From NCBI GenBank assembly GCA_035945995.1, contig DASYZR010000025.1, forward strand, positions 1-32,727: DNA of 32,727 bases. Direction: 5' to 3'. The translations under genes and the position numbers were made by a program. The DNA comes from a bacterium. GTDB lineage: Bacteria; Sysuimicrobiota; Sysuimicrobiia; Sysuimicrobiales; Segetimicrobiaceae. The notes under the pieces are model-generated. The model ran no database searches. It was not told the origin of the DNA and saw nothing but the letters and a program-made list of their open reading frames with translations. Positions within the stretch are counted from its first letter, which is position 1; each line of letters opens with the position of its first letter. This document shows, one piece after another, positions 22,871 through 25,875 of the stretch.

Positions 22871-24400
22871 ATGACGGACGTCATCATTGTCGGCGGCGGG
22901 CACAACGGCCTCGTGTGCGCGGCCTATCTGGCGAAAGCCGGCCTTGACGTGCGGCTGCTCGAACGCCGGGACATGGTGGGCGGCGCCTGCGTCACGGAAG
23001 AGTTGTTCCCGGGGTACCGGTTTTCCGCGTGCTCCTACTATTGCTACCTGCTCCAGACCAAGGTAATCGAAGACCTCCAACTGCGCCGTCACGGGTTCCA
23101 CGTGTCCCCCCTTGCTCCGTTGAAGTGCTGTCTCTACCCGGACGGCCGCGCGCTCCTGACGTGGGACAGCGTGGAACAAACCCAGGAGGCGATTGGGCGC
23201 TTTTCCAAGCGGGACGCCGAGGCGTATCCGCGCTGGGTGGCGTTTTGGGAGCGCGCCGCGGCCTTGATTCACCCGTACTTTCTTACGGCGCCCCCGACGC
23301 TGGCCGAATTGGCGGCCCGGCTGCGCACGCCCGACGACCGCACGTTTCTGGACCGGTTGCTTGCGGCAAGCGTCGAGGACGTGGTCACCGAGTTTTTCGA
23401 GGACGAGGCCATTCGCGGCGCGTTCATCCACGCGCACGATGCCGGCGACCCGACCGCCCCCGGCAGCGCCTGGTGCTTTACGTACATCAGATCCAGCGCT
23501 TTCACTCCTCGAGAGAACACCGGCATCGTTCGGGGCGGGATGGGCACCATCACTCAGGCAATGGCGGCGGCGGCGCGGTCACACGGGGTGACGGTAGAGA
23601 CGGGCGTCGCCGTTGCGGAGATCCTGGTCGAGGGCGGCGCCGCCGTCGGCGTTCGCCTGGCGGACGGCGGGGAAATTCGCGCGCGCGTCGTCGCGTCGAA
23701 CGCCGACCCGAAGCGCACGTTCCTGCGGCTCGTCGGCCAAGAACACCTGCCCGCCGAATTTCGCCGCACAGTCGGGCGGCTCAAGACGAACACGGCGTAT
23801 TTCAAGTTTCACGCGGCGCTCAGCCGGCTTCCCGATCTCTCCCGATACTTCCGTGGCGACTACGACGCGCGCTACCTCGGCTATACGAAGATCTCGCCCT
23901 CGATCGAATACTTCAAGCAGAGCTGGGATGACGCCAAGCACGGCCGGCCGCCCCGCGCGCCCGTGATGGACATCCAAATCCCATCGGGCTACGACCGGAC
24001 GATGGCTCCCGAAGGGAAGCACGTGATGTCGATCTGGGCCTCGTACGCGCCGGTGCGTCTGGCCGAGGGAACGTGGGACGAGAGGCGCGACGAGGTGGGC
24101 GAACATTTCATCGACGTCCTGGCGCGGTACGCGCCGGACATTCGGGACTGCCTTGTCGACTGGCAGCTCTTCACCCCGCGGGATCTCGAGGAGCGCGTCG
24201 GCCTCACCGACGGCAACATCCGCCATCTCGACATCGTCCCGAGCCAGTTTCTTGCCGGCCGGCCGATGCCCGGCTGGGCGCACTATCGGACTCCGATCAA
24301 GGGCTTGTACCTATGCGGCGCCGGCACGCATCCGGGCGGGGAAGTCACGGGCGCGCCGGGTCACAACGCGGCGCACGCGATACTCGCGGATATCGCGTGA
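22871..24400 (+). CDS. FAD-dependent oxidoreductase, phytoene-desaturase-like (CrtI/COG1233)
   Basis: A 509-residue flavoprotein. The dinucleotide-binding motif IIVGGGHNGLVCAAYLAKAG lies at residues 5-24, followed by the acidic-loop region LLERRDMVGGACVTEE. The C-terminal FAD motif is LYLCGAGTHPGGEVTGAPGHNAA. This pattern defines the NAD(P)/FAD-dependent oxidoreductases related to phytoene dehydrogenase and pyridine nucleotide-disulfide reductase domain protein 2. There are no carotenoid genes nearby, so carotenoid desaturation is unlikely. ATG at 22871, 4 bp after ribokinase. Substrate unknown. Confidence 0.88.
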   Translation: MTDVIIVGGGHNGLVCAAYLAKAGLDVRLLERRDMVGGACVTEELFPGYRFSACSYYCYLLQTKVIEDLQLRRHGFHVSPLAPLKCCLYPDGRALLTWDSVEQTQEAIGRFSKRDAEAYPRWVAFWERAAALIHPYFLTAPPTLAELAARLRTPDDRTFLDRLLAASVEDVVTEFFEDEAIRGAFIHAHDAGDPTAPGSAWCFTYIRSSAFTPRENTGIVRGGMGTITQAMAAAARSHGVTVETGVAVAEILVEGGAAVGVRLADGGEIRARVVASNADPKRTFLRLVGQEHLPAEFRRTVGRLKTNTAYFKFHAALSRLPDLSRYFRGDYDARYLGYTKISPSIEYFKQSWDDAKHGRPPRAPVMDIQIPSGYDRTMAPEGKHVMSIWASYAPVRLAEGTWDERRDEVGEHFIDVLARYAPDIRDCLVDWQLFTPRDLEERVGLTDGNIRHLDIVPSQFLAGRPMPGWAHYRTPIKGLYLCGAGTHPGGEVTGAPGHNAAHAILADIA

Positions 24401-24415
24401 CGGCTATTTCCGGCA

Positions 24416-24443
24416 TTGACGGTCTTCACATGTTGGCTATACT
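24416..24443 (+). promoter_or_regulatory. Candidate sigma70 promoter of the decayed toxin-antitoxin unit
   Basis: TTGACG (24416-24421), a 16-bp spacer and TATACT (24438-24443). Expected transcript start is near 24450, six bases before the GTG of the antitoxin remnant. Five of six bases match consensus in each box, which is exceptional in this GC-rich region. Confidence 0.5.
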
Positions 24444-24455
24444 TGTGGCCATAAT

Positions 24456-24599
24456 GTGACGCATTACGGCAAGCCGTACGCTCTCATCCAGCCGTTGTCG
24501 GAACGTGACCTGGAGAGCCTGGGGTGGAGACAACTCGGCGAGGCTCGTCTTCGGGAAGCTTGGGAGGGAGAGGACGATGCCCTCTACGATTACCTTTGA
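24456..24599 (+). pseudogene. Phd/YefM-type antitoxin remnant (N-terminal half missing)
   Basis: A 47-codon frame from a GTG at 24456 reads THYGKPYALIQPLSERDLES and ends DDALYDYL. The GKPYALIQPL segment matches the middle of Phd/YefM-type antitoxins (usual form 'I.r.GkPvA.lvPl'), which then continue into the toxin-neutralising tail. The N-terminal DNA-binding half (about 35 residues) is absent: immediately upstream there is only a promoter-like sequence and no continuing frame. It could be an internal deletion that fused promoter and 3' half. Directly followed by a broken MazF-like gene. Confidence 0.65.
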
Positions 24600-24958
24600 G
24601 CGGGGCAGGTAATCGTTGTCGACGTGCCGTTCTCGGATGATCCGGGACCAAGCCCCGACCGGCGCTGATTGTCAGCGCCAACGCGCGTCATCGTGACCTT
24701 CCCGACATCATCGTGTGCCCGATCAGTAGTCAGCCCCGGTACTTCACGCGCCCCGGACTAGGCGACTCTCCGCTACGGGTGTGGCGCGCCGTTGGGCTCC
24801 GTCATCCGAGCACGCTGCGTGTCTCCAAGTCACTCGCGATCGATAAGCGCATAGTCCGTAGAACGCTCGGGACGGCGTCGCCGGAAGACCTCGCGCACAG
24901 CGATGGAGCGCTGCGCCAGGCATGGCCCTCGCCTGAGAAGAGCCTTCCAAGGCCGTAG
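24600..24958 (+). pseudogene. MazF/PemK-type toxin pseudogene (frameshift, no start codon)
   Basis: Two frames together encode a PemK/MazF-like endoribonuclease. The first (24603-24665) reads GQVIVVDVPFSDDPGPSPDR; after a TGA at 24666 the homology continues in another frame from 24662 (ALIVSANARHRDLP, then DIIVCPISSQ, then WRAVGLRHPSTLRVSK) to the TAG at 24956. The family expects 'DRPALIVS' at the junction, so one base, or the four bases CCGG, is missing near 24660-24663. The 5' end also lacks an initiation codon: the in-frame triplets after the antitoxin stop are GCG GGG CAG. MazF toxins cut mRNA at specific sequences. Here both partners appear inactivated. Confidence 0.75.
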
Positions 24959-25053
24959 CCGGATGCACGAGGGTTGCAGACCGGGCGAGGCGCATTTCAT
25001 CGTGGCGGTCCCATGGAAATGTGGCCGGGCGGGCGGAGCCGGGAGGCGGGTTG

Positions 25054-25875
25054 ATGTTCTCGTTGGCCGGGAAGGCCTGTGTCGTGACGGGCGCGAGCCG
25101 GGGTCTCGGGCGCGCGATCGCGCTCGCGTTCGCGGAACAGGGGGCCGCCGTGCTGCTGGCCGCCCGAAACCGCGCGGACCTGGAAGCGGTGCAGGGGCAG
25201 ATCGCCGCGCGGGGAGGGCGCGCGGCCGTGCAACCGACGGACGTCACTGACATCGAACAACTGCGCGCCGCCGCCGCGGCAGCGGTCGGCCACTTCGGCA
25301 AGATCGACGTGTGGGTCAACAACGCCGGCGGATTCACCGACGTGCCGGGGAGTGCCACGGAGTGGCTGGACGTGACCCACGCCGGCTGGGACCAGATGCT
25401 CCGGCTCAACCTGACGGCGCAGGTGTTCGGCGCGCAGGCCGCGGCGCGGATCATGCGCGGGCAGCCTGCGGGCGGGGTGATCCTGTTCATGTCCTCGATC
25501 GACAGTCTCTACGCGGCGCCCGGAGGCGAGGGCATTTATGGCGCCTGCAAAGCCGCGCTCAACAATGTGACTCAGACGATGGCCGTTGAGCTGGGTCAGC
25601 ACCGGATCCGGGTGAACGCCATCGCGCCGGCGGTCGTCGAGACGTCGCTCACCGCGCCCTGGCTGGCGACGGAGGAAGACCGGCGGGCGCGCGCGGCCTT
25701 CTACCCGCTGCGCCGGGTCGGCCGGCCGGAGGACGTTGCCGCGGCGGCCGTCTACTTCGCCTCGGACGAAGCGGCGTGGGTGTCCGGTGCCGTCCTCTTG
25801 GTGTCGGGCGGCGCAGTCGTGACCAGTGACCCGTACCGGTACCTGATGCGCGTGAACCAGCCCGGACCGGCGTAG
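25054..25875 (+). CDS. Short-chain dehydrogenase/reductase (SDR)
   Basis: A 273-residue classical SDR. Cofactor motif TGASRGLG (12-19), NNAG (89-92), catalytic S147/S148, Y162 and K166 (IYGACKAAL) are intact, and the C-terminal PLRRVGRPEDVAAAAVYFAS is typical. The second beta-strand ends in AARNR, with basic residues where NADP-binding members have them. ATG at 25054 is preceded by GGGAGGCGGG, which sets the start. It follows the decayed toxin-antitoxin unit and converges on another SDR gene. Substrate not predictable. Confidence 0.92.
   Translation: MFSLAGKACVVTGASRGLGRAIALAFAEQGAAVLLAARNRADLEAVQGQIAARGGRAAVQPTDVTDIEQLRAAAAAAVGHFGKIDVWVNNAGGFTDVPGSATEWLDVTHAGWDQMLRLNLTAQVFGAQAAARIMRGQPAGGVILFMSSIDSLYAAPGGEGIYGACKAALNNVTQTMAVELGQHRIRVNAIAPAVVETSLTAPWLATEEDRRARAAFYPLRRVGRPEDVAAAAVYFASDEAAWVSGAVLLVSGGAVVTSDPYRYLMRVNQPGPA

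Follow-up and report, generated by a model that had tools for sequence, protein, structure and literature searches.

Remnant of a Phd-PemK toxin-antitoxin pair, very probably of recent decay, between an oxidoreductase gene and a dehydrogenase gene

Type II toxin-antitoxin pairs that combine a Phd-family antitoxin with a toxin of the PemK/MazF superfamily have been described as PHD-MazF (SMa0917-type) systems (Makarova et al. 2009, PMC2701414), and the set described there is alphaproteobacterial. Decay of chromosomal toxin-antitoxin systems is likewise in print (PMC2654758, PMC7167474), the example being ccdO157 of E. coli (Mine et al. 2009, as cited in both articles), a chromosomal pair that lost its function by mutation and deletion. 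The anti-addiction model (Saavedra De Bast et al. 2008, cited in PMC2654758) holds that an antitoxin encoded on the chromosome counteracts a related toxin carried by a plasmid, and a chromosomal system was shown there to be protective.

The window analysed here is the whole of a 32,727-nt contig (C25) of a draft genome (4.15 Mb, 181 contigs, 98.8% complete). We are confident, at a level short of certainty, that positions 24416-24958 hold an ordinary, recently decayed type II pair, in which a Phd-family antitoxin was encoded ahead of a PemK/MazF-family toxin (presumably an RNase) whose ATG overlapped the end of the antitoxin gene by 23 nt. The families involved are those of the PHD-MazF pairs, to which the locus was likened by their published description, but the pairs reported here come from the window's order and from Rokuibacteriota MAGs. 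With ccdO157 the locus shares its fate, and differs from it in toxin family, antitoxin family and host. The remnant is a fossil of a common module, not a novel type of system, and points to no new mechanism. What it contributes is one more documented example of toxin-antitoxin decay, along with a small Phd-PemK family that spans the window's order and Rokuibacteriota MAGs and includes both intact and broken copies. The features of the locus are collected in Table 1.

Table 1. Features of the remnant and its flanks, in window coordinates
Feature	Position	Strand	Basis or remark
CrtO-like FAD oxidoreductase gene	22871-24400		one flank of the remnant; ORF and family profile matches
Promoter-like site, sigma-70-like TTGACG-16-TATACT	24416-24443	+	1 found against 0.1 +/- 0.4 in shuffles; -10 block kept in six relatives
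Imperfect palindrome over the -10, likely operator	24431-24454	.	7/12 pairs
Deletion junction (about 98-103 nt lost)	24452-24456	+	spacing against relatives and alignment; exact point uncertain by a few nt
Phd-family antitoxin tail, last 47 codons and stop	24456-24599	+	homology; intact relative matches PF02604
Retained toxin start and first 11 codons (MPSTITFERGR, then stop)	24577-24612	+	ATG matches toxin ATG of relatives
Second toxin piece (AGQVIVVDVPFSDDPG), another frame	24600-24650	+	ORF and alignment
Third toxin piece, PemK/MazF family, third frame (KPRPALIV)	24650-24958	+	PF02452 and alignment
Short-chain dehydrogenase gene	25021-25875		other flank of the remnant; ORF and family profile matches

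Each of the six relatives examined has the same -10/operator block ahead of its antitoxin, and pairing within the palindrome reaches 11/12 across relatives (in L055). The palindrome is likely to be the operator of this Phd antitoxin family. The distance from the block to the valine codon that opens the V-T-H-[YH]-G stretch is 21 nt in the window versus 119-124 nt in five relatives (L009, 124 nt; L010, 119 nt; L011 and L012, 121 nt each; L053, 120 nt), the sixth, L055, having been left out of this comparison as it is without that stretch. About 98-103 nt has therefore been lost from the window, and with it the ribosome-binding site, the start and the first 28 codons of the antitoxin; the promoter and operator are now fused to the VTHYGKP stretch. 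The preliminary description, which had placed an antitoxin devoid of its DNA-binding part behind an intact promoter, was accurate on both points. The operator palindrome survives, and the protein presumed to bind it is gone.

The tail that remains is 89% identical to the intact copy in genome G009. Alone, it matched no Pfam or NCBIfam family, and its Phd family was assigned because intact relatives match: the intact L012 antitoxin (75 aa) is recognised by PF02604 (31.9 bits, cut-off 29.8) and by TIGR01552. Since the N-terminal, DNA-binding part that belongs to a Phd/YefM antitoxin is missing, the window holds the remnant of a member of that family and no working member.

The third toxin piece matches PF02452 (E 8.6e-11, 42.4 bits, cut-off 23.1; the intact L009 toxin scores 69.6 bits), which places it in the PemK/MazF family. 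Open toxin pieces start in three different frames, from 24577, 24600 and 24650, so that two frameshifts are needed, one at 24598-24609 and one at about 24640-24650; in addition, the alignment shows an altered and longer C-terminus, caused by 5 extra nt at about 24921-24926. The toxin had earlier been thought to lack a start codon and to carry one frameshift near 24660, put down to the loss of one base or of one CCGG copy. Its ATG is in fact kept, within the antitoxin end; the two genes overlap there by 23 nt up to the antitoxin stop, just as they do in the four relatives compared, and the loss of a CCGG copy is unneeded. With the antitoxin truncated and the toxin in three frames, two complete adjacent or overlapping genes are not present. 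An overlapping gene in another frame was also considered; the minus-strand ORF at 24744-25490, on the strand opposite to the conserved dehydrogenase gene, was judged by eye to be spurious.

Relatives of the pair were found both intact and broken. Among 100 genomes searched with the toxin fragment, 10 had a match at E <= 0.001, its own included, and five reached an identity of at least 64% (its own, G009, G041, G029 and G035). At E <= 0.01 the tail had matches in 6 of the order's 43 genomes, strong ones in the same five, and 10 loci emerged when named genomes were scanned, including L052 (Bacillota bacterium Centralia_MAG_233), L056 (CSP1-3, placed under Candidatus Sysuimicrobiota in the NCBI taxonomy), and L053 and L055 (Rokuibacteriota MAGs), whose toxins are 72% and 68% identical, respectively, to that of L009. 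Four pairs are intact, three from the window's order (L009, L011 and L012) and L053; they agree in gene order, overlap and promoter block, their toxins are each encoded in a single frame, and they presumably work as toxin-antitoxin pairs. In L010 the antitoxin is complete and the toxin has a frameshift within the G-rich stretch that also holds the second shift of the window, which reflects either a mutational hot spot or repeated decay. In L055 (1903-2354) the antitoxin carries an out-of-frame deletion and the toxin frame is open with one codon missing, a sequence change by which that toxin may be inactive. L060 and L049:5834-5902 are fragments only. Two minor observations concern these loci: a nearly perfect 24-nt palindrome (11/12 pairs) spans the -10 region at L055:1860-1883, and the pair at L048:5388-5519 and following (CSP1-3) is the same as that of L010, with its toxin frameshifted.

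The shift shared with L010 would suit programmed translational frameshifting, by which a full toxin would be produced from three frames. That reading calls for two separate shifts, is at odds with the single-frame toxins of L009, L011, L012 and L053, and would leave the antitoxin truncated all the same; we give it next to no credence.

Selection on the decayed pair was assessed with a codon model that allowed the window branch its own omega, using six sequences (the window, L009, L010, L011, L012 and L053; L055 and L060 were left out as parts of them are missing) on a topology fixed by hand, so that all values come from small samples. For the toxin (87 codons), the window branch had an omega of 0.12 against 0.072 for the other branches, a difference that was not significant (LRT 1.06), and the model rejected omega = 1 on the window branch (LRT 9.27). 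Purifying selection thus acted on the toxin along most of that branch, and its decay is therefore recent, in agreement with what its preserved similarity had first suggested. At toxin sites invariant in the other five sequences, the window carries private amino-acid changes at 6 of 50 and L009 at 4 of 48. For the tail (39 codons, overlap excluded), omega was 0.00 on the window branch versus 0.067 elsewhere, and with six sequences this differed significantly neither from the background (LRT 2.04) nor from 1 (LRT 2.81); the model did not single out the tail for special conservation. In the 47-codon set of the tail, private amino-acid changes at sites invariant in the other five sequences number 0/29 in the window and 0/29 in L009.

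The low toxin omega, together with the position of both one-base shifts in short G-rich stretches, would also fit assembly or sequencing errors in a toxin gene that is in truth intact, with only the antitoxin truncated. We regard this as very unlikely. Two shifts and 5 extra nt would have to fall within 350 nt, yet both flanking genes have long, uninterrupted frames (509 and 284 aa) and share 87% and 89% identity with their counterparts in the same-genus genome G002, which argues against many indel errors in the contig. The toxin has, moreover, changed at six of the 50 sites mentioned above, L010, which was assembled independently, has a shift at this same position, an active toxin deprived of its antitoxin would presumably be harmful to its host, and one-base errors could not account for a deletion of about 100 nt in the antitoxin.

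Under the preferred reading of recent decay, a deletion of about 100 nt joined the promoter and operator to antitoxin codon 29, and the toxin gene was shifted out of frame twice and gained a small insertion close to its 3' end. The toxin was probably lost no later than the antitoxin. What is left appears to have no function and is most likely inert, save for possible residual transcription from the old promoter; the unchanged tail (no private changes at 29 sites) and its fitted window-branch omega of 0 speak against a functionless remnant.

These same two properties bear on the idea that the deletion created an antidote that has since been kept. An operator-promoter once autoregulated would have been fused to the toxin-binding tail and, now unrepressed, would express a leaderless 47-residue peptide from a GTG, acting against related MazF toxins of incoming elements; the preliminary description had raised such a leaderless peptide as an anti-addiction agent against a related toxin elsewhere. 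The anti-addiction model is in print (PMC2654758), the 47-codon frame is open directly behind a good promoter, and the tail is free of private amino-acid changes. Apart from this open frame and the absence of changes in the tail, nothing positive emerged: the GTG is the ancestral valine codon of intact homologs, the ribosome-binding site is gone, so that leaderless translation would be needed, and the tail omega is not significantly below the background or 1. Whereas the chromosomal system of the anti-addiction modules is reported as protective (PMC2654758), what remains in the window is a tail whose expression is hypothetical, and no cognate toxin was found in the genome. We consider a kept antidote to be extremely unlikely.

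An intact related pair, sought by family, was not found in the same genome. The only other MazF match lies on contig C99 (L001:1483-2057, G000:C99), shares 27% identity with the toxin of the intact relative across 86 residues, and is a complete gene adjoining a ribbon-helix-helix-like gene, the product of which gave weak matches to such profiles (RHH_8, 24.2 bits, under the cut-off of 25.4). Because this one further MazF is so divergent and has a ribbon-helix-helix-like partner, the genome yielded no cognate toxin against which an anti-addiction peptide could act. Five Phd-like genes of the genome match at E <= 0.001, and their neighbours resemble PIN-domain proteins by eye. Mobile elements gave a similar picture: the plasmid records searched held no relative of the tail and only toxin relatives below 60% identity (19 records), and the viral contigs searched held no antitoxin relative and distant toxins only (5 loci, 27-47% identity). 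PADLOC reported nothing.

The decayed pair sat at a site of gene turnover between the CrtO-like oxidoreductase and short-chain dehydrogenase genes. No relative of the toxin or of the antitoxin tail was detected in the two same-genus genomes searched, G001 and G002, where the flanking genes are 10.7 kb and 6.7 kb apart, respectively, with other genes between them. Six ORFs scanned in the G002 interval encode an aldo/keto reductase, a GFO/IDH/MocA oxidoreductase, two permeases, a solute-binding protein and a polysaccharide deacetylase, and three scanned in the G001 interval encode an rpiR-type regulator, an amidohydrolase and a creatininase. The interval at 24400-25021 of the window is thus a gene-turnover site, and the pair was either gained in the window's lineage or else lost in G001 and G002.
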